DNA from: Flavobacteriaceae bacterium
GTDB taxonomy: Bacteria; Bacteroidota; Bacteroidia; Flavobacteriales; Flavobacteriaceae
Assembly: GCA_024763015.1 (NCBI GenBank)
Contig: JANTGO010000002.1
Span: 1 to 39,713 of the forward strand
Reading direction: 5' to 3'
DNA length: 39,713 nt
Part shown: positions 3,768 to 17,451 of the stretch, piece after piece
Layout: every line of letters begins with the position of its first letter
Position numbering within the stretch: the first letter of the stretch is position 1
Program-made: the position numbers and the translations under genes
The notes under the pieces: model-generated
Seen by the model: the letters and a program-made list of their open reading frames with translations, nothing else
Databases searched by the model: none
Told to the model about the DNA's origin: nothing

Positions 3768-4589
3768 ATGAATAAAATTGTTTTTAAGGAGTTTCTTTCA
3801 GAAAATGTAGCAAGAATCGTGGTAGATGCCCCTGAGATTGCTAAATCGAGGAAACCCGGTCACTTTGTGATTATAAAAATAGGTAAGAAAGGGGAGCGTA
3901 TCCCCTTAACCATTGCTGATGCTGACGAAAAGGCAGGCACAATTACATTAATTGTTCAAAAGGTAGGGGTTACCTCTGCAAAATTAATAGCCTTGAATGT
4001 GGGTGATGAGATAACGGATTTATCCGGCCCCTTGGGAAAAGCTACAGACATTAAAAAAATTGGTACTATTTTATGTGCTGGTGGTGGTGTAGGTGTAGCG
4101 CCTTTGTTCCCAATAGTACAAGGATTTAAGCTTGCAGGAAATAGAGTGATTACCGTTTTGGCAGCTCGAAATAAAGATTTAATTATATTGGAAGACGAGA
4201 TGAAAAAATATTCCGATGAACTCATTATCATGACAGATGATGGATCATCCGGAAAAAAAGGACTGGTTACAGCCGGAATGGAAGAAGTAATTCAAAGAGA
4301 AAAAGTAGATGAAGCAATTGTTATTGGACCCGCAATTATGATGAAATACGGTGCGCTTACGACAAAAAAATATGATATTCCGACACAAGCCAGTCTTAAT
4401 ACGATTATGGTTGATGGTACCGGAATGTGTGGTGCTTGTAGGGTAACTGTTGGTGGTGAAACTAAATTCGTTTGTATAGACGGACCTGAATTTGATGCGC
4501 ATAAAGTAGATTTTGATCAAATGATGAAACGTTTGGGCGCTTATAGACAAGAAGAAGTGGAAGCATATGAAAATTATTTAAATTCTTAA
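3768..4589 (+). CDS. Sulfide/dihydroorotate-dehydrogenase-type FAD/NAD(P)-binding subunit (NfnA/SudB-like)
   Basis: RxPLTIAD-type FAD site (RIPLTIADAD), AGGGVGVAPLFPI, C-terminal cluster DGTGMCGACRVTVGGETKFVCIDGPEFD. Confidence 0.88.
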   Translation: MNKIVFKEFLSENVARIVVDAPEIAKSRKPGHFVIIKIGKKGERIPLTIADADEKAGTITLIVQKVGVTSAKLIALNVGDEITDLSGPLGKATDIKKIGTILCAGGGVGVAPLFPIVQGFKLAGNRVITVLAARNKDLIILEDEMKKYSDELIIMTDDGSSGKKGLVTAGMEEVIQREKVDEAIVIGPAIMMKYGALTTKKYDIPTQASLNTIMVDGTGMCGACRVTVGGETKFVCIDGPEFDAHKVDFDQMMKRLGAYRQEEVEAYENYLNS

Positions 4590-4594
4590 CAGTC

Positions 4595-6079
4595 ATGAAA
4601 AATATTGCAGATTATTTAAAAGAAGAAAGAAAACAAGAATGGCGCGCCGAATTAAGAAAGAAAGTTAAAGCCAAAGAAAGAACCTCCCGTGAGCGTACAC
4701 AAATGCCGGAGTTTGATCCTGAAGAAAGAAGTCATAATTATGAAGAAGTAAACCTTGGATTTGATGAAGAACAAGCTTTATTTGAAGCAACTCGTTGTTT
4801 AGATTGTCCTGACCCAACTTGTATTTCAGGTTGTCCTGTAGGGATTAATATTCCTAAATTTATCAAGAAAATAGAAGCCAATGACTACTTGGGTGCTGCC
4901 GGTGTATTAAAAGAAACTAATGCTTTACCCGCCGTTTGTGGTCGTGTGTGTCCACAAGAAAAACAATGTGAATTAAATTGTTTCTACACGATAAAATTAC
5001 ACAAACCGGCTATTCCTATTGGAAGTTTAGAACGTTTTGCAGCGGATTATGAACGTAATTCAGGCCAAGTGGCTATTCCGGAGGTTGCTGAATCAAATGG
5101 TATAAAAGTGGCCATTGTTGGTTCCGGACCTTCAGGTTTAAGTGCTGCCGGAGATTTGGCTAAAATGGGTTATGATGTAACTGTTTTTGAAGCATTACAC
5201 GAGATTGGTGGTGTGCTTAAATATGGTATTCCAGAATTCCGTTTACCCAATGAGATAGTCGATGTTGAGATAGAAGTTATGCGTAAAATGGGTGTTAAAT
5301 TTAGAACCAATTTTATCGTAGGAAGAACAGCATCTTTTGACCAATTAAGAGCAGAGGGTTTCCAAGCATTTTTCATTGGAAGCGGGGCAGGATTACCTAA
5401 ATTTATGAATATCCCCGGAGAGAATTTTAACGGTATAATGTCTGCCAACGAGTATTTGACACGCGTAAATCTTATGCATGCAGCTCATGAGGATTATGAT
5501 ACGCCTGTTTTATTCGGTAAAAACGTTGCTATTATCGGTGGTGGTAATACAGCAATGGATTCTGTACGTACTGCAAAACGTTTGGGCGCCGAACGCGCTA
5601 TGATTATTTATCGTCGTTCAAGAGAAGAGATGCCGGCACGTGTTGAAGAAGTACATCATGCTTTGGCAGAAGGAATCGAGTTTTTAAACTTGAATAATCC
5701 TATAGAATATTTTGCAGACGAAAATGGTCGTGTAAATAAAATGAGATTACAAAAAATGGAATTGGGCGAGCCGGATGCTTCCGGTAGAAGACGTCCTGTA
5801 CCTATTGTAGGATCAGAATATGATGTGGATGTAGAATTGGTCATTGTGGCAGTTGGTACATCGCCCAATCCATTATTGGCTCAAGTGATGCCCGAAATAG
5901 AAGTTACTTCTTGGGGAACTTTTAAAGTAAACAAAGAGACCATGCAAACTTCAGTTCCTGATATATTTGCAGGCGGCGATATCGTTCGTGGTGGCGCTAC
6001 GGTCATTCTTGCAATGGGTGACGGACGTAAAGCTGCGGTAGGAATCGATCAATACATAAAAGAAAAAGTGAAAAAATAA
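4595..6079 (+). CDS. NADPH-dependent glutamate synthase small-subunit-like oxidoreductase (NfnB/SudA-like)
   Basis: N-terminal Cys cluster CLDCPDPTCISGCPV...CGRVCPQEKQCELNC, two Rossmann motifs (VAIVGSGPSGLSAAGDL; VAIIGGGNTAMDSVRTA); 5 bp after partner gene. Confidence 0.9.
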   Translation: MKNIADYLKEERKQEWRAELRKKVKAKERTSRERTQMPEFDPEERSHNYEEVNLGFDEEQALFEATRCLDCPDPTCISGCPVGINIPKFIKKIEANDYLGAAGVLKETNALPAVCGRVCPQEKQCELNCFYTIKLHKPAIPIGSLERFAADYERNSGQVAIPEVAESNGIKVAIVGSGPSGLSAAGDLAKMGYDVTVFEALHEIGGVLKYGIPEFRLPNEIVDVEIEVMRKMGVKFRTNFIVGRTASFDQLRAEGFQAFFIGSGAGLPKFMNIPGENFNGIMSANEYLTRVNLMHAAHEDYDTPVLFGKNVAIIGGGNTAMDSVRTAKRLGAERAMIIYRRSREEMPARVEEVHHALAEGIEFLNLNNPIEYFADENGRVNKMRLQKMELGEPDASGRRRPVPIVGSEYDVDVELVIVAVGTSPNPLLAQVMPEIEVTSWGTFKVNKETMQTSVPDIFAGGDIVRGGATVILAMGDGRKAAVGIDQYIKEKVKK

Positions 6080-6204: not shown

Positions 6205-7884
6205 ATGAAAAATAGTGGCTGGGGAAAAATAATTCCAATAGTAATTTTACCTTTGAGTATAATTCTATATATTGTTTTTACCTATAACAGCGATGTTGAT
6301 AGAGATTACTTAGCATCGTCAAAAATTGAGATCAAACATGATTCAATTCCGGTAGATCATTCTAAATTTGAGATTCTCCAAAAGGATTTTAAAACGGGAC
6401 CTGAAGTGACAGAAGCTTGTTTATCCTGTCATAATGGACGAGGAAAAGAATTTATGAAAACAGAACATTGGAAATGGCACAAAGTTGATTCTATTCCCGG
6501 TCGTGGCAATTTTGATTTAGGAAAGAAAAATATACTGAACAATTTTTGTATTGGTGTAAATTCCAATGAACAGTTGTGCTCTATGTGTCATGCCGGTTAT
6601 GGTTATGGCGATAAGAATTTTGATTTTAACAATCAGAATAATATAGATTGTTTAATTTGTCATGATGGTACTAAAAAATATAAAAAATCTAATCCTTGTA
6701 AGGGGCCAAATCTGCCGGGTGCAGGCGCGCCTGATATACATGTAGATTTAAAAGCAGTAGCACAAAGTGTGCAATTGCCAAAAAGAAATAATTGTGGAAG
6801 TTGTCATTTCACCGGTGGAGGTGGAAATAATGTAAAACACGGCGATTTAGAAATGGGTTTGCTTAGTGCGCATACAGGATTAAATGGCGATATAGACGTG
6901 CATATGGGTGTTGGAAAAGACGGGCAAAATATGCAGTGTACAGATTGTCACAAAACCCACAATCACCAAATAAGCGGACAATTATATTCTGTGTCTTCTT
7001 CTAATAAGAATAAAGCAACTTGTGTAGAATGTCATACCGGCAAACCACATAAAAGTGAGTTGTTAAACGAGCATTTTAAAACAGTTGCCTGTCAAACTTG
7101 TCATATCACGGAATATGCAAAAATACATCCTACTAAAATTATTTGGGACTGGTCAACAGCTGCTAAAATGGATAAAAACGGAAAGCCTATTTTTGCAAAA
7201 AAATTACCCGGAAATACCTACACATTTGATGGTAAAACTTATACGGATGTAGAATTGGAATATGATTCCAGACACGGTACAGCTGTATTAAAAAAAGATG
7301 TTAAACCTGAATATATTTGGTTTAATGGCACGGCCAATCACCAGTTAATTACCGACAAGATAAAAGACACATTACATCCATTGGTACTCAATCCGTTGTT
7401 TGGATCGTACAAAGACAATTATATGCCTGCAGATTCATTACATCCTTCTAAAATATGGCCGGTTAAAATCATGAGAGGTAAACAACCTTATGATAAGGAA
7501 AATATGACTTTGGTACAGCCAAAATTAGCGGGTAGAATTAAGGGAAGCAATGCTTTATGGGCTGATTATGATTGGCAAGCGTCTATTAAAGCAGGAATGG
7601 ATTATCTCGATTTACCTTATAGTGGTAAATATGGTTTCATTGAAACGCAAAGTATGTGGCCTTTAAATCATGAGGTATCAGAATCAACAAAAGCTTTAAG
7701 TTGTACAGAATGTCATAATTCAACGGATAGTAGGTTAAAAAATCTTTCAGGATTTTATATGCCGGGTAGAGACCACAGTCCTTGGATAGAATATACTGGA
7801 TGGATATTTTTGGTTTTGGTATTATTGGGTGTTACAGTTCATGGTGCCATCAGAATATTTAGTAATAAAAAAATGAAACATTAA
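6205..7884 (+). CDS. Octaheme c-type cytochrome, tetrathionate reductase (OTR) family, membrane anchored
   Basis: Eight CxxCH motifs counted: CLSCH, CSMCH, CLICH, CGSCH, CTDCH, CVECH, CQTCH, CTECH. N-terminal signal/TM and C-terminal TM (WIFLVLVLLGVTVHGAIRIF). Confidence 0.88.
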   Translation: MKNSGWGKIIPIVILPLSIILYIVFTYNSDVDRDYLASSKIEIKHDSIPVDHSKFEILQKDFKTGPEVTEACLSCHNGRGKEFMKTEHWKWHKVDSIPGRGNFDLGKKNILNNFCIGVNSNEQLCSMCHAGYGYGDKNFDFNNQNNIDCLICHDGTKKYKKSNPCKGPNLPGAGAPDIHVDLKAVAQSVQLPKRNNCGSCHFTGGGGNNVKHGDLEMGLLSAHTGLNGDIDVHMGVGKDGQNMQCTDCHKTHNHQISGQLYSVSSSNKNKATCVECHTGKPHKSELLNEHFKTVACQTCHITEYAKIHPTKIIWDWSTAAKMDKNGKPIFAKKLPGNTYTFDGKTYTDVELEYDSRHGTAVLKKDVKPEYIWFNGTANHQLITDKIKDTLHPLVLNPLFGSYKDNYMPADSLHPSKIWPVKIMRGKQPYDKENMTLVQPKLAGRIKGSNALWADYDWQASIKAGMDYLDLPYSGKYGFIETQSMWPLNHEVSESTKALSCTECHNSTDSRLKNLSGFYMPGRDHSPWIEYTGWIFLVLVLLGVTVHGAIRIFSNKKMKH

Positions 7885-7896
7885 AATTAGATAATA

Positions 7897-9444
7897 ATGA
7901 AAAAAGTACAAATATATTCAGGATATGAACGTTTTTGGCATTGGACGCAAGCAACATTAATTTTGTTATTGGCTATGACCGGATTAGAAGTTCATGGAAC
8001 ATATCATTTATTAGGTTATGAGAATGCTGCTTTATTACACAAAAATCTTGCTTGGGCACTTTTAATATTGATTGTATTTACACAATTCTGGAATATCATT
8101 ACAGGTGAGTGGAGACAATACATCCCATCTACAAAAATGATGAAAGAGCAAATAGAATACTATATTACAGGTATATTTAAAAATGCACCCCACCCGACTA
8201 ATAAGACCGTATATAACAAGTTTAATCCGCTTCAGAGAATTACCTATTTAGGATTGCGTATTTTAGTGATTCCTGTAGTTGTATTAAGTGGAATAGTATA
8301 TATGTATTATTACGGTTTTTTAGAAGAAAACATGCATTTTCCTTTGGGTACAGTAGCTTATATTCACACCATTGGCGCATTTTTGTTGATTGGATTTGTT
8401 ATAGGACATGTATACTTGACCACAACCGGATTAAAACCACTCTCTGCCATTAAAGCAATGCTTACCGGTTGGGAAGAAATGTCTGACGAAGAAGCGCAAG
8501 TAGCATTAGAAGAAAATTTATTGGTGGCAATGGATAAAAGTAAGCAAACAATAGTCGATGCAGATGGAACGGAAGATCAAGATACAGAGAGAATGTTTGA
8601 AGAAGCTTATGAGGAAGCATCTGAAAAATTAGGCCTGGCTACCGGTGAAACTATTTTGCAGAATAAATTATCAGATTCAAATGTCGGTTATTTTAAAATC
8701 AATAAAGATGGTTATTATGAAGATGTAAACAATGTATGGCTAAATCTTTATAAATGTAAGGATAAATCAAAAATTATCGGCCAACATATGTCGCTTAATA
8801 GAAGTGAAGAAGGTAAGAAAAAAGTACAAAGATTATTTAATGATGTTTTAGCCGGAAAAGTTGTTACAGGAGAAAGGGTAGAGCGCCACTGTATGGACGG
8901 AACGATTGGTTATCATACAATTTCGGCCAAAGCCTATAAAGACGACGAAGGCAAAGTTGCCGGTGTAGAAGGCTATATTATTGATATTACGCCTCAGGTT
9001 GAAGCTGAAAAAGATTTGGAAAACAAACTGAAATTACAGATAAAAAATGAGGAATTTTATAAAAAAATGATTGCCTCAAAAGACGTTGGTTATTATCGTA
9101 TTGATAAAAATGGGTTTATTCAAGATGTAAATGACACTTGGCTGAAGTTATATAAATATGATTCCAAAAAAGATGTAATAAATCAACATTATTCGTTGAG
9201 TAGAAGCAAAGAAGATTTCTTAGAGTTGAAAAAATCTGTTGATAAAGTATTAAAAGGTGAAACAATTCCTTTTGGAATTACCCGTAGACATTGTCATGAT
9301 GGAAGCATAGGATACCATGATATTACAATGACACCTGTGTATGAAGGTGATGAAATCGTTGGATTTGAAGGATTTATCGTTGACAAAACCGATAAAAAAT
9401 TAGCAGAAGAAGAACTTAAAAAAGAACGTTCAAAAAATGCGTAA
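7897..9444 (+). CDS. Cytochrome b561-type membrane domain fused to two PAS domains
   Basis: N-terminal YERFWHWTQATLILLLAMTGLEVHG, later GFVIGHVYLTTTG; C-terminal half has two homologous PAS units with xRHCxDGxIGYHxI; no kinase or GGDEF seen. Confidence 0.82.
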   Translation: MKKVQIYSGYERFWHWTQATLILLLAMTGLEVHGTYHLLGYENAALLHKNLAWALLILIVFTQFWNIITGEWRQYIPSTKMMKEQIEYYITGIFKNAPHPTNKTVYNKFNPLQRITYLGLRILVIPVVVLSGIVYMYYYGFLEENMHFPLGTVAYIHTIGAFLLIGFVIGHVYLTTTGLKPLSAIKAMLTGWEEMSDEEAQVALEENLLVAMDKSKQTIVDADGTEDQDTERMFEEAYEEASEKLGLATGETILQNKLSDSNVGYFKINKDGYYEDVNNVWLNLYKCKDKSKIIGQHMSLNRSEEGKKKVQRLFNDVLAGKVVTGERVERHCMDGTIGYHTISAKAYKDDEGKVAGVEGYIIDITPQVEAEKDLENKLKLQIKNEEFYKKMIASKDVGYYRIDKNGFIQDVNDTWLKLYKYDSKKDVINQHYSLSRSKEDFLELKKSVDKVLKGETIPFGITRRHCHDGSIGYHDITMTPVYEGDEIVGFEGFIVDKTDKKLAEEELKKERSKNA

Positions 9445-9805: not shown

Positions 9806-12076
9806 ATGGGAAAATTAAATCGTAGAGATTTTATTAAAATATCCGGAGGCGCTGCAGCCGGCGCTATGGTAACACCACCATTGACAAATATTTTTCAGTC
9901 TTTTGTTTCAAAAAAAGAAAAGCATTTATTAGAGGGCGAAGCGACCAAAGTATCTACAGTTTGTGAAGTGTGTTTCTGGAATTGCGCAGGCTGGGTATAT
10001 AAAGACCGAGAAAATAATATTCGTAAAGTAATTGGTAATGATATCGATCCACACTGTAATGGACGTTTATGTCCAAGAGGTACAGGTGGATTAGGGATGT
10101 ATTATGACAATGACCGTTTAAAAACGCCACTTATCAGGGTAAAATCTAAAGATGGAAAGCAATCTTTTAGAAAAGCAACTTGGGATGAAGCCTTGGATGT
10201 CATAGAAAAAGGTATGAAAAATATCGAAAAGAAATATGGCAAGGAAAGTATGGCGCTATTATTTCATGGTAAGACGGGTCCTCATTTCGAGCATTTATTC
10301 AAAGCTTGGGGATCTGATACTATGGGCGAACCGGCCGGAGCACAATGTCTCATTACTAGAGAAGCCGGATTTATTGCCACGTACGGAAGCGGATTAGGCT
10401 CACCTGAACCAACAGATATTACCAACGCAGACTGTTTAGTCTTACTTGGCCATCATATTGGTGAAAATATGCATAATGGACACGTACAAGATGTTTCTAC
10501 TTTGATTGATAGAGGGGGAACTATTATTACAGTAGATCCACGCTTTTCTACCATGGCAGCGCATTCTACTTCTTGGTTGCCTATTAAACCCGGAACGGAT
10601 ATTGCCTTGCTACTTGCATGGATGAATGTCATTATTAATGAAGAGCTATATGATAGGGATTATGTAGCTAAATATACCTATGGCTTTGAAGAATTAAAGC
10701 AACATGTTCAAAAATACTCTCCTGAATGGGCAGCTGGTATTACCACAATTCCTGCTGGAGATATATACAAATCAGCCCGTCAAATGGGTGGTGGTTCCCC
10801 TAGAACGATTGTGCATCCCGGAAGACATACTGCTTGGTATGGCGATGATACGCAAAGAACGCGAGCCATTGCCATATTAAATGCATTGTTAGGTGCTTGG
10901 GGGCGCAAAGGAGGTTTTTATTTTACTGAAAAAGTCAAATTACCCAAAGAAGTACATCCGCCGTTTCCAAAACCAAAATGGACTTGGAAAAATATTTCAA
11001 AAGAAAAGCACAAAATGGCCATTATGGGCATTACCAATGAAATAATGGATAATGGTTTGCCGGAATATAAAGGACCATATAAAGTAAAAGGTATGTTTTT
11101 CACGGCAACCAATCCTATCCAATCCATCCCGGATGAAGATAAGATTAAGCGCATATTAGAAAATCAAGAATTTATAGTAGTGGTGGATACTATGCCGAGT
11201 GAAATAACCGGTTATGCTGATGTCGTTTTACCAGAAGCCACTTACTTAGAGCGATTGGATCACATTAGGACGTCTCATCATAAATCTCCAAATATTGCTT
11301 TACGCTATCCGGCTGTAAAACCCAGATGGGAAAGCAAACCGGGGTGGTGGATTGCCCGTGAGATTGGCTTGCGTTTAGGGTTAAAAGATTTCTATGAATG
11401 GGAAGATTTTGAAGAGGTGCTCGATTGGCAGCTCAAACAAGTCGGAAGTTCTATGGAAGAGATGAAAAAACTAGGTGTAAAACATTTCCCTAGAAAAACA
11501 CCAATTTATCTCAAAAAAGATGAAGATTATTGGTTCAATACCAATACCGGTAAGATAGAGTTATATTCTACTGATTTTGCCGAGTGGGGTTATGACCCGA
11601 TGCCGACCTATAAACCTCATGGTGATATACCGGCAGGTTACTTAAGATTGATTTATGGTAGAATTCCAATGCATACCTTTGGACGTACTTTAAATAATCC
11701 TTATTTGAACGAATTAAAAAATGAACCAAAATTATGGGTAAATCCAAAAGTAGCTCGTATTTATGGTCTTAATAATGAACAAGAAGTTTGGCTACAAAAT
11801 CCAAAAGGAAAGATTAGCTCTTTTTCAATTAAAGTAAGAATAACCGAACGAATTAGACACAATTCTGTTTTCTTGCCACACGGATTTGGTAATAAAGGAC
11901 GAATTTTTGTAGATGGAAAAGTGCAGGAGATGCATCTTACTTATGGACGTGGAATTAGCGATGCAGAAATGATATCAAATGTACTAATTGATCCTGAGAC
12001 CGGTGGTACAGGAATGAAAAATAATTTTGTAAAGATATTAACAGATAACCCTTATAAAAAAGAAACAACATCATGA
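9806..12076 (+). CDS. Tat-exported molybdopterin oxidoreductase, PhsA/PsrA-like (thiosulfate/polysulfide/tetrathionate reductase catalytic subunit)
   Basis: Tat motif NRRDFIKISGG; FeS site CEVCFWNC...CNGRLCPRG; MGEPAGAQCLITREAG; followed by FeS and NrfD subunit genes. Confidence 0.87.
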   Translation: MGKLNRRDFIKISGGAAAGAMVTPPLTNIFQSFVSKKEKHLLEGEATKVSTVCEVCFWNCAGWVYKDRENNIRKVIGNDIDPHCNGRLCPRGTGGLGMYYDNDRLKTPLIRVKSKDGKQSFRKATWDEALDVIEKGMKNIEKKYGKESMALLFHGKTGPHFEHLFKAWGSDTMGEPAGAQCLITREAGFIATYGSGLGSPEPTDITNADCLVLLGHHIGENMHNGHVQDVSTLIDRGGTIITVDPRFSTMAAHSTSWLPIKPGTDIALLLAWMNVIINEELYDRDYVAKYTYGFEELKQHVQKYSPEWAAGITTIPAGDIYKSARQMGGGSPRTIVHPGRHTAWYGDDTQRTRAIAILNALLGAWGRKGGFYFTEKVKLPKEVHPPFPKPKWTWKNISKEKHKMAIMGITNEIMDNGLPEYKGPYKVKGMFFTATNPIQSIPDEDKIKRILENQEFIVVVDTMPSEITGYADVVLPEATYLERLDHIRTSHHKSPNIALRYPAVKPRWESKPGWWIAREIGLRLGLKDFYEWEDFEEVLDWQLKQVGSSMEEMKKLGVKHFPRKTPIYLKKDEDYWFNTNTGKIELYSTDFAEWGYDPMPTYKPHGDIPAGYLRLIYGRIPMHTFGRTLNNPYLNELKNEPKLWVNPKVARIYGLNNEQEVWLQNPKGKISSFSIKVRITERIRHNSVFLPHGFGNKGRIFVDGKVQEMHLTYGRGISDAEMISNVLIDPETGGTGMKNNFVKILTDNPYKKETTS

Positions 12077-12606
12077 GATATGGAATGGCAATAGAAGTCA
12101 ACAAATGTGTTGGTTGTGCTGACTGTGTAGTAGCATGTCAAATAGAAAATAATGTTCCGATGGGCTATTCAAGAGATTGGATTATGGAACATGTAACCGG
12201 AACTTATCCCGTTTTAAATATGCACTTTGAATCGCAGCGTTGCAATCACTGCGATGACACGCCTTGTGTAAGAACTTGCCCGACAGGTGCAAGCCATGTT
12301 ATAGAAGGAGGAATTGTTAAAGTAGCACAAGACGATTGTATTGGCTGTGGTGCTTGTATAGAAGCTTGTCCTTATGATGCCAGATATTTTCATCCGGATG
12401 GATATGTAGATAAATGTACTTTTTGTGATCACAGAGTAGAAGAAGGCTTAGATCCTGCTTGTGTATCGGTTTGCCCAACAACTTGTATGCATTTTGGCGA
12501 TTTGGACAATCCTGATAGCGAGATTTCAAAATTGATCAATAGTAGAGAGAATTTCACACTGATTCCTGAAGCCGGAACAGCACCACAAATTTTTTATTTA
12601 AAATAA
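12073..12606 (+). CDS. 4Fe-4S ferredoxin electron-transfer subunit, PsrB/PhsB-like
   Basis: Clusters CVGCADCVVAC, CNHCDDTPCVRTCP, CIGCGACIEACP, CTFCDH...CVSVCP; 4 bp overlap (ATGA) with upstream gene. Confidence 0.92.
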   Translation: MRYGMAIEVNKCVGCADCVVACQIENNVPMGYSRDWIMEHVTGTYPVLNMHFESQRCNHCDDTPCVRTCPTGASHVIEGGIVKVAQDDCIGCGACIEACPYDARYFHPDGYVDKCTFCDHRVEEGLDPACVSVCPTTCMHFGDLDNPDSEISKLINSRENFTLIPEAGTAPQIFYLK

Positions 12607-12613
12607 ATAACTC

Positions 12614-13615
12614 ATGAAAGAATATATTTTAGATACCACAAGAGATATACACGGTTTATATCCTCACGTACACATTTGGGGCTTTCCAATTGCTGCCTAT
12701 TTGTTTTTAGGTGGTTTGGCAGCCGGAATCTTGCTTTTTGCGACCCTTTATTATTTAAAAGGTAAAGCCGATGATATGCCCTTTACAGTAAAAATAGCAC
12801 CAATTTTTACATTTATTATTATTATGTTGGGATTGATGCTGCTTGTTTTTGATTTACATCACAAATTATATGTATTTAAGCTATTTATGACCTTTAGAAT
12901 CGAATCACCTATGTCTTGGGGGGCTTGGACTTTAGTGGGCGTAAGCATCTTTTCCCTATTATGGCCACTGAGTTATATCGATGATATTGAAAAATATTTA
13001 CATGATCGTGGTTGGAGAAGGTTAGATGTTGTTACTAAATTTATTAGAGATTTAGAACACAACTGGCTGATTCCTAGATTTTTGATAATATCTTTTAGAA
13101 AGTATAGAACATTTTTCGCCTATATTTTACTTATTTTATCAATAATATTAGGTATTTATACGGGTATTTTATTATCTGCATTTAATGCACATCCATTGTG
13201 GAACAATCCAATTTTAGGCCCTTTGTTTTTAACATCCGGTATTTCTACAGGCTCGGCTTTTGTGATGTGGTTAAGCAATAACAAAAAAGAGAGAAGGTTA
13301 ATGTCAAACATTGATATGGCATTAATAGCTATTGAATTATTTTTTATCATTCATATGGTTATGGGCTTGCAAGCCGGACCGGAAGCTTTTAAACTAGCCG
13401 GGAGTCTATTTTTAGGAGGGCCTTTTACTGTTACATTTTGGATACTATTTGTAGGTTTTGGTTTGATTCTACCATTTGTTTTGGAAGCTTTTGAGTTAAA
13501 AGGCTATCATATTCCACCAGCATTACCGGCATTATTAGTGCTGATTGGTGGTTTTTTGTTTAGAATAATTATGGTACAAGCAGGACAAGTATCGGAATAT
13601 CCGTTTATACATTAA
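12614..13615 (+). CDS. NrfD/PsrC-type polysulfide reductase membrane subunit
   Basis: Multi-TM protein starting HIWGFPIAAYLFLGGLAAGILL, in A-B-C operon order. Confidence 0.88.
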   Translation: MKEYILDTTRDIHGLYPHVHIWGFPIAAYLFLGGLAAGILLFATLYYLKGKADDMPFTVKIAPIFTFIIIMLGLMLLVFDLHHKLYVFKLFMTFRIESPMSWGAWTLVGVSIFSLLWPLSYIDDIEKYLHDRGWRRLDVVTKFIRDLEHNWLIPRFLIISFRKYRTFFAYILLILSIILGIYTGILLSAFNAHPLWNNPILGPLFLTSGISTGSAFVMWLSNNKKERRLMSNIDMALIAIELFFIIHMVMGLQAGPEAFKLAGSLFLGGPFTVTFWILFVGFGLILPFVLEAFELKGYHIPPALPALLVLIGGFLFRIIMVQAGQVSEYPFIH

Positions 13616-13631
13616 ATTAAAATAAATTGTT

Positions 13632-14159
13632 ATGAAAACAAATAAATATATGAATGCCTATATTGGTGGTTTTTTATTAGGACTTCTTATTATAGCTGCT
13701 TATTATTTTTCAGGAGAAGGTCTTGGGTCAAGTGGTGGTTTTAGAGATGTTGCCATTACAACTATCAATGCTGTTTCACCCGAATATGCTCAATCTAATG
13801 CATATACGGCAAATAGAGTAGCAGATGGCGCAAATCCAATACACACTTGGCTGGTTTATGAATTGTTAGGCGTAATATTTGGTGCTATTATTTCTGCTGC
13901 CATTTTTGGCAGACTCAAATTTAAAATTGGAAAAGCGCCACATATCACGAATAGAAAAAGATTATACCTGGCAGTATTAGGTGGTATTCTTTGGGGAATT
14001 GGAACGCAATTGGGAAGAGGATGTACCTCCGGTCTGGTATTATCAGGTATGGCCGTAAACTCATTATCCGGTTATATCGGCTTAGCAACAATATTTGGCT
14101 TTGGGTTTATTTTCGCCTATATTTTTAAAAAACTATGGATTAAAACAAAAAACAACTAA
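13632..14159 (+). CDS. YeeE/YedE family protein (thiosulfate-transporter-like half)
   Basis: ILWGIGTQLGRGCTSGLVLSGMAVNSLSG motif, multi-TM, 175 aa. Confidence 0.85.
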   Translation: MKTNKYMNAYIGGFLLGLLIIAAYYFSGEGLGSSGGFRDVAITTINAVSPEYAQSNAYTANRVADGANPIHTWLVYELLGVIFGAIISAAIFGRLKFKIGKAPHITNRKRLYLAVLGGILWGIGTQLGRGCTSGLVLSGMAVNSLSGYIGLATIFGFGFIFAYIFKKLWIKTKNN

Positions 14160-14161
14160 TT

Positions 14162-14776
14162 ATGGGACCATTATATCCGGATTTTATAAATCCTGAACTA
14201 AATTTATTAATCGGCTTTTTAATAGGAATTGGATTTGGCTTTTTGCTGGAAGCTTCGGGCTTTACCAATACTAGAAAACTTGCAGGTATTTTTTATGGCT
14301 ATGATGCTACTGTTATTAAGGTGTTTTTTACAGCGGCTTTAACAGCAATGATTGGTTTGTTTATCCTTCATTATTTAGGTTGGATTGACATTACTGCAAC
14401 AATGCCTACAACCTTTTGGATACCGACGCTTATTGGCGGCGCCATTATGGGACTTGGCTTCATTATCGGAGGATTTTGTCCGGGCACGAGTTTATCGGCA
14501 GCAGCTACCGGAAAAATAGATGCTATGGCATTTATAGTTGGGGTTATGATTGGTATTTTCGGCTTTATTTTTACCTTTAAAGATATATGGGAAAATTTGC
14601 GAAATTCAGGAAAGTTAGGAAAAGTTGATATCACGGAATGGATTGGTATCAAAGAAGGTTTATTTATATTTCTTTTTACGGTAATTGCCGTTATTACATT
14701 TATCGGCTTCCAAAAATGGCAAGATCATTGGAAAAAGAAATTATCACAAGATGATATTAACGATTTAGGAATATAA
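14162..14776 (+). CDS. YeeE/YedE family protein (second half)
   Basis: GFGFLLEASGFTNTRKLAG and IIGGFCPGTSLSAAATGKIDA motifs, multi-TM; 2 bp after the first half. Confidence 0.85.
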   Translation: MGPLYPDFINPELNLLIGFLIGIGFGFLLEASGFTNTRKLAGIFYGYDATVIKVFFTAALTAMIGLFILHYLGWIDITATMPTTFWIPTLIGGAIMGLGFIIGGFCPGTSLSAAATGKIDAMAFIVGVMIGIFGFIFTFKDIWENLRNSGKLGKVDITEWIGIKEGLFIFLFTVIAVITFIGFQKWQDHWKKKLSQDDINDLGI

Positions 14777-14823: not shown

Positions 14824-15447
14824 ATGAAACGAAGAGAAATTTTAATTTTATTGCTCCTTTTAATAGGTGCATTTATTACAATATTTTTTCCAAATATTAA
14901 ATCTCAAGAAAATGTAATTGGAGAAAAAGAATTGTTAAGCGAGGTTAACAAAGCAGGTAGATATGCAAGCACGGATGAGATTGCAAATGCTATAATTAAT
15001 AATGATCCCAGTTATATTCTAATTGATGTAAGAGATGTAAAACAGTTTAAATCTTATACAATTGATGGTGCTGTTAACATTAATTTAGATAATATTATGG
15101 ATGATAAATACAAGGATTATCTGAATACTGAAGCATATACCGTAGTTTTATTTTCAAATGGTAGTAGCAAAGCTGATCAGGTTTGGTTAAGACTTCGTTG
15201 TACCGATCACAAAGGAATTAGAGTGATGAAGGGAGGGCTAAATGAATGGTATAAAACCATTATAAATCCTCAAAAACCTATTGATAATGAAATGACGGCG
15301 GAAAAAGAAAAACAATATTTGTTTAGAAAACAAGCTTCCTATTATTTTACAGGCACACAAGTTTCTAGCGGGGTAACCAAAAAGAAATCGAGTAGCAAGC
15401 CCATTGTTAAGAGAAAGAAAAAAGAAGTAAGTGGCGGTTGTGGTTAG
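14824..15447 (+). CDS. Exported/membrane-anchored rhodanese-like protein with C-terminal KPIVKRKKKEVSGGCG tail
   Basis: N-terminal hydrophobic segment LLLLLIGAFITIFF; YILIDVRDVKQFKSYTIDGAVNI rhodanese start; loop FSNGSSKA lacks Cys; ends SSSKPIVKRKKKEVSGGCG. Confidence 0.85.
   Translation: MKRREILILLLLLIGAFITIFFPNIKSQENVIGEKELLSEVNKAGRYASTDEIANAIINNDPSYILIDVRDVKQFKSYTIDGAVNINLDNIMDDKYKDYLNTEAYTVVLFSNGSSKADQVWLRLRCTDHKGIRVMKGGLNEWYKTIINPQKPIDNEMTAEKEKQYLFRKQASYYFTGTQVSSGVTKKKSSSKPIVKRKKKEVSGGCG
15397..15444 (+). other. C-terminal tail copy 1 (KPIVKRKKKEVSGGCG)
   Basis: aag ccc att gtt aag aga aag aaa aaa gaa gta agt ggc ggt tgt ggt, then stop. Confidence 0.95.
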
Positions 15448-15571
15448 TAAATAGGTAATTTTTATTGAAAAGAAAAAAGAATTAAAAAATAGAAATAAAA
15501 AAATACACAATTATCATATAGGTTTATTGTATTCCAATATAGCTTGATATTTATGTCATAAATAGAAAATT

Positions 15572-16162
15572 ATGAAAAAAATAATATTAATTTTAGCAGT
15601 GTTTTTACTCATTATATCTTGTAAAAATAATTCGGAAATTAGCCAAAATGAAATTAATAAGGGTTGCAAAGCAAATTTTATTACTAAAGAAGAGTTGGCA
15701 GATCTTTTATATAGCAAAGATTTATCCGGTGTCCAATTTATCGATATACGGACGCCTCATGACTATACTATTAGTCATTTAAAAAATGCTATAAATATTC
15801 CAATGAAGAATTTCTTTGACAAAAAATACTTTTCCAAAATAAATAAGGATGATGTACTTATTATCTATGGTGCAGATGCAAGTACACCAAGGCTAATGGC
15901 ATTAATGTCAGATCATTTTAATAAGGGAAAATTTTATGTAGCATTAGGAGGTTACGATTATATTAGACATAATATCATTGATAATTATTCAATATATAGC
16001 GATATGTATGATGATGAAAAGCCTTTGGTAGATTTTCAAAAAAAGATAGATGAAATAAAAAGTAGAGCCGGCGTAGCACCCGGAAAAACTGTTAAGAAGT
16101 CTGCTGCTTCTAAACCAATTGTTAAACGTAAGAAAAAGGAAGTCTCAGGTGGTTGTGGATAA
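15572..16162 (+). CDS. Rhodanese-like lipoprotein with C-terminal KPIVKRKKKEVSGGCG tail
   Basis: Lipobox LLIISCKNN; VQFIDIRTPHDYTISHLKNAINIP; loop IIYGADASTPRLM lacks Cys; ends AASKPIVKRKKKEVSGGCG. Confidence 0.85.
   Translation: MKKIILILAVFLLIISCKNNSEISQNEINKGCKANFITKEELADLLYSKDLSGVQFIDIRTPHDYTISHLKNAINIPMKNFFDKKYFSKINKDDVLIIYGADASTPRLMALMSDHFNKGKFYVALGGYDYIRHNIIDNYSIYSDMYDDEKPLVDFQKKIDEIKSRAGVAPGKTVKKSAASKPIVKRKKKEVSGGCG
16112..16159 (+). other. C-terminal tail copy 2 (KPIVKRKKKEVSGGCG)
   Basis: aaa cca att gtt aaa cgt aag aaa aag gaa gtc tca ggt ggt tgt gga, then stop. Confidence 0.95.
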
Positions 16163-16275
16163 ATTTTATTTTATAAGACTTGATTATTTGCAGTTTAATA
16201 ACATCTATAATAAAGAATAAATTAGCTAAATCTATATTTTTTGATTTAACAGATAATTAATAATAAGTAAATACT

Positions 16276-17451
16276 ATGAAAAATTATAAATATATATTAA
16301 TGTTTTTGACTCTAGTGCTATTAAGTGCTTGTAGAGAAACTAATTTTTTACCTGAACCGGTTGGTAAAAAAGATGTAGATTTTAAACAATTAATTACAGA
16401 AAAAGAGCAAGAACCATTGGCCAGGATTTATTATATGCATGGAAATTTTATCAATTCAAAACAATTTCCGCCAATTGTAAATGCCGAGGAAGTGCTCGAT
16501 AATCTGAATAATTGGTTGTTGATTGACATTAGAAAATCTGATGCCTATGAAGCCGGACATATCAATGGTGCTTATAATGTCCCCAAAGACAAGGTGCTCG
16601 ATTTTATAAAAAATAAACAAAAAGCTTCTGCATATCCAAAAGTTGTATTTATCTGTTATACCGGTCAAATGGCTTCTTATGTTACAGGAATAACCCGTTT
16701 TAGCGGTTTTGATAATACTTATGTGATGCTTTTTGGAATGGCCGGCTGGAATGAACAGTTTTCTGCACCATTAAAAGCTGGATATGGCACAAGATATCAA
16801 GATATGATTGTAAAAACCAGTAATAAAACGGAAACGATTAGCAATAATCATGAAGCAAAAGCAGGTGCACATAAAAACATTGATTTATCAAAATTACCAA
16901 AATTACCACAAAAAGCACCTTCAGAATTAATGAAGGTGCAAGCGCAAAAATTATTATTACAAGGTAGAAAAGAATTTTTATTAAAGGCTAATGAATTTTT
17001 CCATGATTATAAAGCCAATCCTAATAAGTATTTACCTTTATTTTATTTATCAAAAGACAAATATTATGTAGCTCATATTAAAGGTGCTGTATTCTATCAA
17101 TCCAGAAAGGATTTAAGCCTAGATGCTAAATTAACTGATTTGCCGACTGATAAAAATATTGTTGTTTATTGTAAAACAGGACATACAGGAGGAAATGCTA
17201 CTGCATATTTAAATATGTTAGGCTATAAAGCAGAAAATCTTATGTTTGGTTCTAGTAGTTTTATGTTTGACTTATGGAAAAAAGAAGGGTGGAATACTGA
17301 TATAAGCAATCTAATTAATAATTTTCCTGTTGTTGAAGGTAGTAAACGTACCAGTGCAAAAATTGTAGCATCCGCTCCCAAAAAAGTAGGTGGTACAACA
17401 AAACCTATTGTAAAACGTAAGAAAAAAGAAGTATCAGGTGGTTGTGGCTAA
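16276..17451 (+). CDS. Tandem rhodanese-domain lipoprotein with C-terminal KPIVKRKKKEVSGGCG tail
   Basis: Lipobox LVLLSACRET; domain 1 LLIDIRKSDAYEAGHINGAYNVP...VVFICYTGQMAS; domain 2 VAHIKGAVFYQ...IVVYCKTGHTGG; ends GTTKPIVKRKKKEVSGGCG. Confidence 0.87.
   Translation: MKNYKYILMFLTLVLLSACRETNFLPEPVGKKDVDFKQLITEKEQEPLARIYYMHGNFINSKQFPPIVNAEEVLDNLNNWLLIDIRKSDAYEAGHINGAYNVPKDKVLDFIKNKQKASAYPKVVFICYTGQMASYVTGITRFSGFDNTYVMLFGMAGWNEQFSAPLKAGYGTRYQDMIVKTSNKTETISNNHEAKAGAHKNIDLSKLPKLPQKAPSELMKVQAQKLLLQGRKEFLLKANEFFHDYKANPNKYLPLFYLSKDKYYVAHIKGAVFYQSRKDLSLDAKLTDLPTDKNIVVYCKTGHTGGNATAYLNMLGYKAENLMFGSSSFMFDLWKKEGWNTDISNLINNFPVVEGSKRTSAKIVASAPKKVGGTTKPIVKRKKKEVSGGCG
17401..17448 (+). other. C-terminal tail copy 3 (KPIVKRKKKEVSGGCG)
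   Basis: aaa cct att gta aaa cgt aag aaa aaa gaa gta tca ggt ggt tgt ggc, then stop. Confidence 0.95.

Follow-up and report, generated by a model that had tools for sequence, protein, structure and literature searches.

The analysed window, a 39,713-nucleotide stretch of a Flavobacteriaceae genome, contains three consecutive forward-strand genes that we refer to as R1 (14824-15447), R2 (15572-16162) and R3 (16276-17451). The preliminary description had reported that these three adjacent ORFs, of 207, 196 and 391 aa, end in the same 16 residues, and this is exact, as are the positions and lengths. The shared tail, KPIVKRKKKEVSGGCG, is encoded at 15397-15444 in R1, at 16112-16159 in R2 and at 17401-17448 in R3.

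All three proteins match the Pfam family Rhodanese above its cut-off and no other Pfam family. R1 is a membrane-tethered rhodanese fold in which Ser111 replaces the catalytic Cys, followed by a flexible linker and the tail. Its AF2 model consists of an N-terminal membrane helix (residues 3-20), a fold spanning residues 34-178 with pLDDT values mostly of 80-96, and a C-terminal stretch (residues 180-207) with values below 50; the tail is predicted to be disordered. R2 and R3 are predicted lipoproteins, with signals recognised by inspection (IISC and LSAC, respectively). R2 has a rhodanese fold without a catalytic Cys, whereas R3 comprises two rhodanese domains with the catalytic residues Cys127 and Cys299. 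Foldseek matches of the R1 and R2 models were rhodaneses, the R2 model being the weaker one (pLDDT 73). The earlier term 'rhodanese-like' is thus confirmed for the fold by Pfam and Foldseek, but it needs a qualifier, because R1 (FSNGSS) and R2 (YGADAS) lack the catalytic Cys and are catalytically dead.

This loss extends beyond the window. Every one of the 20 aligned R1 proteins has Ser at the catalytic position, and the aligned R2 proteins have Gly or Ser there, whereas both catalytic cysteines are kept in the 8 aligned R3 proteins. The tail Cys, in contrast, persists where the rhodanese catalytic Cys is lost, and 24 of the 28 distinct R1 proteins contain no other cysteine after the first Met. 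One R3 protein differs (L068, 10001-11107): it lacks the basic GGC tail and the first catalytic Cys, and its C-terminus is Cys-Asp, as in the R1 and R2 tails of the same genome.

Directly upstream of R1 lie five further genes of the same orientation. PsrA (9806-12076) is a TAT-exported molybdoenzyme, whose closest solved relative is Thermus PsrA (2vpw, E 2e-175). PsrB (12073-12606) is the iron-sulfur subunit and PsrC (12614-13615) the NrfD-type quinone-linked membrane subunit; with matches to PF13247 and PF03916, the Psr/Phs set of catalytic subunit, PsrB and NrfD-type PsrC is complete. YeeE1 (13632-14159) and YeeE2 (14162-14776) share out the two halves of the YeeE/YedE profile (PF04143, Sulf_transp) together with its channel cysteines. 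YeeE1 covers profile positions 175-306, is PmpA-like and carries the conserved Cys in GRGCTSG; YeeE2 covers positions 4-154, is PmpB-like and carries it in GGFCPGTS. PmpA and PmpB are the C-terminal and N-terminal halves of a YeeE-type channel, respectively (PMC11582611). The gene order PsrA-PsrB-PsrC-YeeE1-YeeE2-R1-R2-R3 is conserved in genomes of Flavobacteriales, Saprospiraceae, Ichthyobacteriaceae and Bacteroidales. The relevant unit is therefore the whole PsrABC-YeeE1-YeeE2-R1-R2-R3 operon, beyond the three tailed ORFs.

Immediately upstream of this operon, and also on the forward strand, are an octaheme tetrathionate-reductase-family cytochrome (OTR, 6205-7884; TIGR04315, 518.7 bits against a cut-off of 375) and its partner, a cytochrome b561 with two extra PAS domains (7897-9444). 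Upstream of OTR, positions 3768-6079 contain a FAD/NAD and Fe-S oxidoreductase gene pair resembling NfnAB or the sulfide dehydrogenase SudBA.

Specificity and concerted evolution of the tail

The genome that contains the window (2.1 Mb, 87% complete, from a Flavobacteriales relative) has six matches to the DNA pattern GGNGGNTGYGGNTRR, which describes a GGCG end followed by a stop, namely R1-R3 and three that do not end ORFs of at least 60 aa. Across 396 genomes, no match to the KKK-GGCG pattern ended an ORF of at least 80 aa outside the window genome, which rules out that the tail is a motif common in the phylum. Variant tails came to light only through homology searches, and our survey therefore combines pattern and homology. 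For example, the Flavobacteriales have KRKKKEVSGGCG, the Saprospiraceae and Ichthyobacteriaceae KRKKKAVSGGCG, and the Bacteroidales and relatives VPVKKKQVGGGCE, KRKKKSAAGGGCD (R1 and R2 only) and KKAGKKAGGGGGC.

Tails resemble their neighbours more than their orthologues. Among 19 genomes, mean tail identity is 0.897 within a genome but 0.656 between orthologues of different genomes, and the observed value was not attained in any of 10,000 permutations; restricting the comparison to a single genome per lineage gives 0.861 and 0.540. The bodies of the proteins show the opposite pattern, with paralogues 23-37% and orthologues 29-51% identical. At the nucleotide level, R1 and R2 use different codons at 9 of the 16 tail positions, with switches such as AGT/TCA and AGA/CGT, and over 17 loci 304 of 752 identical tail residues within a genome (40%) are differently encoded. 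These codon differences rule out recent duplication or gene conversion as the source of the identical tails. Selection thus acts on the tail at the protein level, and the tails of each genome evolve in concert, which is explained by a reader or partner common to the tailed proteins.

The preferred reading is that this partner exchanges sulfur with the tail Cys. A shared sorting or processing enzyme would likewise force tails to evolve in concert, which counts against the carrier reading, and basic residues with Gly-Cys at a C-terminus do look like a signal. The tail could then serve sorting, anchoring or processing by one enzyme, its Cys being modified or cleaved and carrying no sulfur. We regard this as unlikely, given that anchors are already present at the N-terminus (the R1 helix and the R2 and R3 lipoprotein signals) and that the fusions described below are multi-pass channels. 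Moreover, the hydropathy of R1, R2 and R3 shows no hydrophobic segment ahead of the basic GGC end, in contrast to the tails of sortase, PEP-CTERM/exosortase or rhombosortase substrates. In the loci examined, the tail is also limited to the rhodanese/YeeE family. The preliminary description had named wide occurrence on unrelated non-sulfur proteins as a refutation; this did not materialise in these loci, where a GGC end or GGC plus one residue was found in only 1 of 608 non-family ORFs of at least 150 aa, and that one is an exported rhodanese. Further GGC-ended proteins in the tail genomes (L126, L127, L128) are exported rhodaneses as well.

Fusion to the YeeE channel and linkage to respiratory enzymes

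On an Ignavibacteria contig (L075), YeeE2 is fused to an R1-type domain that ends in KRVVGGC. The fusion protein contains PF04143 and Rhodanese domains, and its C-terminal domain is homologous to R1 (hhalign probability 99.9%, E 6e-35), with which it has a C-terminal FRxxA helix in common. A long match to the fusion is present in 74 of 294 Ignavibacteria genomes, and fusions occur in about 30 of 376 genomes evenly sampled from the phylum. The tail is a constant feature of these proteins: of 49 distinct fusions, 47 have a GGC that is terminal or followed by a single further residue (the remaining two end in GGLCS and REGC), and 34 of the 49 have no cysteine after the YeeE core other than that of the tail. 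We found no plasmid copies of the fusion, and the Nitrospirota and Campylobacterota genomes examined either gave no match or had YeeE halves that were neither fused nor tailed.

Hydropathy and charged flanks, judged by inspection, place both the C-terminus of YeeE2 and the N-terminus of R1 inside. From this topology, the R1 domain and its tail are predicted to lie outside the inner membrane, an arrangement with which the fusion agrees.

The fusion is closely linked to OTR. Nineteen of 20 enlarged loci comprise OTR, usually cytochrome b561, YeeE1 and the fusion, and the remaining one has PsrABC instead. OTR is present in 72 of the 74 fusion genomes versus 26 of the 220 others (Fisher p about 1e-43, uncorrected for relatedness), and in 70 of the 74 the fusion lies directly downstream of it. 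Some of the 26 OTR-positive others encode a more distant fusion adjoining OTR (L183, 8825-10042, tail RSGGLCS). In a separate small phylum reached from L078, 4 of the 5 genomes covered encode fusions with a GGC-type tail (L229, L232-L236), and unfused versions combine PsrABC with a lone tailed R1 or with R1 and R2 (L217, L219, L224). Since OTR loci and PsrABC loci, split forms and fused forms all occur, YeeE1, YeeE2 and a tailed R1 are the constant unit, and the oxidoreductase is exchangeable. The co-occurrence with YeeE, PsrABC and OTR genes that the preliminary description had suggested looking for is therefore borne out, as across lineages the tailed domain forms fusions with YeeE and shows linkage to PsrABC or OTR.

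Several details of these loci may be recorded here. In the OTR-linked branch of L183, RSGGLCS replaces the GGC end, and L235 is similar with RAGGLCS. Within the small phylum, one genome (G754) has two fusions on opposite strands, separated by about 9 kb, and one labelled Acetofilamentum has a GC content of about 0.67 and is probably misnamed. In Ignavibacteria L074-L077, a tail-less, R3-like double rhodanese follows a multiheme cytochrome distantly related to OTR.

The fusion to YeeE2, the conserved Cys in both YeeE halves and the position of the tail Cys at the tip of a basic stretch would also suit a redox or docking thiol, which could form a disulfide with the channel cysteines or with the enzyme and so gate or tether the complex. 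This seems improbable to us, as the identical tail is also found on R2 and R3, two stand-alone predicted lipoproteins for which a gate within a single channel would have no need, and as R3 additionally contains two catalytic rhodanese cysteines. A tail that carries sulfur remains the reading we favour.

A putative periplasmic sulfur-relay system

We propose that R1-R3 are probably periplasmic sulfur carriers with a shared Gly-Gly-Cys arm that work with the split YeeE channel and with either PsrABC or OTR/cytochrome b561. A sulfur intermediate, as persulfide or thiosulfonate, would be held on the Cys of the flexible, basic C-terminal arm of R1, R2 and R3, and the arm common to all three would allow one set of partners to load and unload them. 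The core of the system would be R1, a rhodanese fold that has given up its own catalytic Cys and is placed beside, or fused to, the YeeE1/YeeE2 channel. Reduction or oxidation of the arm-bound sulfur would fall to the quinone-linked enzyme (PsrABC, or OTR together with cytochrome b561), and the YeeE pair would move sulfur to or from the cytoplasm by exchange with the arm. R3 still has two catalytic cysteines; with these it would pass sulfur back and forth between the arms and free sulfane compounds, and it may load or unload the arms. Whereas the anatomy, the loss of the catalytic Cys, the concerted tails, the fusion and the operon linkage are shown by the analysis, we infer the sulfur on the tail Cys, its transfer into YeeE and the chemistry of the enzymes.

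Some observations count against this proposal. Most tail genomes lack TusA, which usually acts as the cytoplasmic acceptor, or have only a weak match to it. Whether a Psr-family enzyme uses polysulfide or thiosulfate is not reliably readable from its sequence, and neither sulfur nor thiosulfate stimulated Melioribacter roseus, which has a psrABC operon and may or may not encode the tailed protein (PMC3534657). The arm might even carry another element, such as selenium, arsenic or a metal, considering that the YeeE/YedE relatives include a selenium-linked YedE and that Psr-type enzymes and arsenate reductases overlap in sequence (PMC3534657). We consider this very unlikely: Thermus PsrA is a far better match to PsrA than ArrA is, and sulfur as the cargo of the arm is favoured by the combination of rhodaneses with PsrA, by the partners' names, all of which come from the sulfur cycle, and by sources with names such as SulCav.

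The preliminary description had likened the three proteins to SoxY, which carries sulfur intermediates on the Cys of a swinging GGCGG arm. The idea of carriers with shared partners is strengthened by the concerted tails, the retained Cys, the YeeE fusion and the linkage to PsrABC or OTR, but the proteins are not homologues of SoxY. What the two have in common is a Gly-flanked Cys at a flexible, Gly-rich C-terminus (here GGC or GGC plus one residue, on an R1 tail modelled as disordered), a periplasmic location and heme enzymes among the partners. In contrast to SoxY, R1-R3 have an unrelated rhodanese fold, lack a SoxZ, are tethered to the membrane and bear a basic arm in which the Cys is the last or next-to-last residue, and there are up to three carriers per operon. 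The absence of SoxY, noted earlier for the window, extends to the window genome, and the SoxY domain PF13501 is likewise without a match in 20 of 21 tail genomes overall. This is therefore not a Sox system.

Other sulfur proteins offer partial parallels. DsrC bears sulfur on the penultimate Cys of a mobile C-terminal arm, and thus also has an arm-borne Cys near its C-terminus; however, it is cytoplasmic, has another fold and serves DsrAB. Wolinella Sud works through its rhodanese active-site Cys. Sud and the exported rhodanese RS06465 of Desulfurivibrio, described from a Psr operon (PMC12142623), are similar to R1-R3 as periplasmic rhodaneses that serve or are encoded with PsrABC, but they use the active-site Cys, whereas R1 and R2 have lost it and would use the tail instead. 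YeeE/TsuA, SoxT and the split PmpA/PmpB belong to the same channel family, with conserved Cys. The partner of YeeE/TsuA is YeeD, a cytoplasmic TusA-like protein, whereas here it would be a periplasmic tailed rhodanese, sometimes fused to the channel. Together with the Desulfurivibrio Psr operon, two further cases serve as precedents for the proposed relay. Sulfur transfer from SoxY to a YeeE-type channel (SoxT) has been proposed, and periplasmic delivery of protein-bound sulfur was described for SoxT as poorly understood (PMC11582611). In lucinid symbionts, the other precedent, a divergent SoxY gene lies beside otr (PMC11237559).

A limited search of the open-access literature did not turn up any earlier account of the tail or of the fusion, and no family model among the matches names either. 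Arm-borne sulfur carriers are known; the unrelated fold and the set of partners are new here. That tails of this type recur on related proteins across dozens of bacteria with only distant relationships to one another, and in linkage with a sulfur channel and a respiratory enzyme, suggests a hitherto undescribed means by which sulfur atoms are kept and handed on outside the inner membrane. If the proposal is true, swinging-arm sulfur handling arose again on an unrelated fold, and this would suggest how YeeE channels obtain protein-bound sulfur from the periplasm. The C-terminal GGC signature provides an easy marker for finding the system in genomes from sulfidic habitats.

With a little less than even confidence, we extend the proposal to a general periplasmic sulfur-relay module of a dead rhodanese with a GGC arm, a split YeeE and interchangeable respiratory enzymes, in whose octaheme form arm-bound sulfur would be the native substrate of OTR-family cytochromes. 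Reported substrates of this family are nitrite, hydroxylamine and tetrathionate (PMC4484225), and the family would gain a concrete candidate partner. The cytochrome b561 beside the window's OTR carries its two PAS domains C-terminally and possibly has a sensor function; the OTR-adjacent equivalents in Ignavibacteria, at ~225 aa, have no room for PAS domains.
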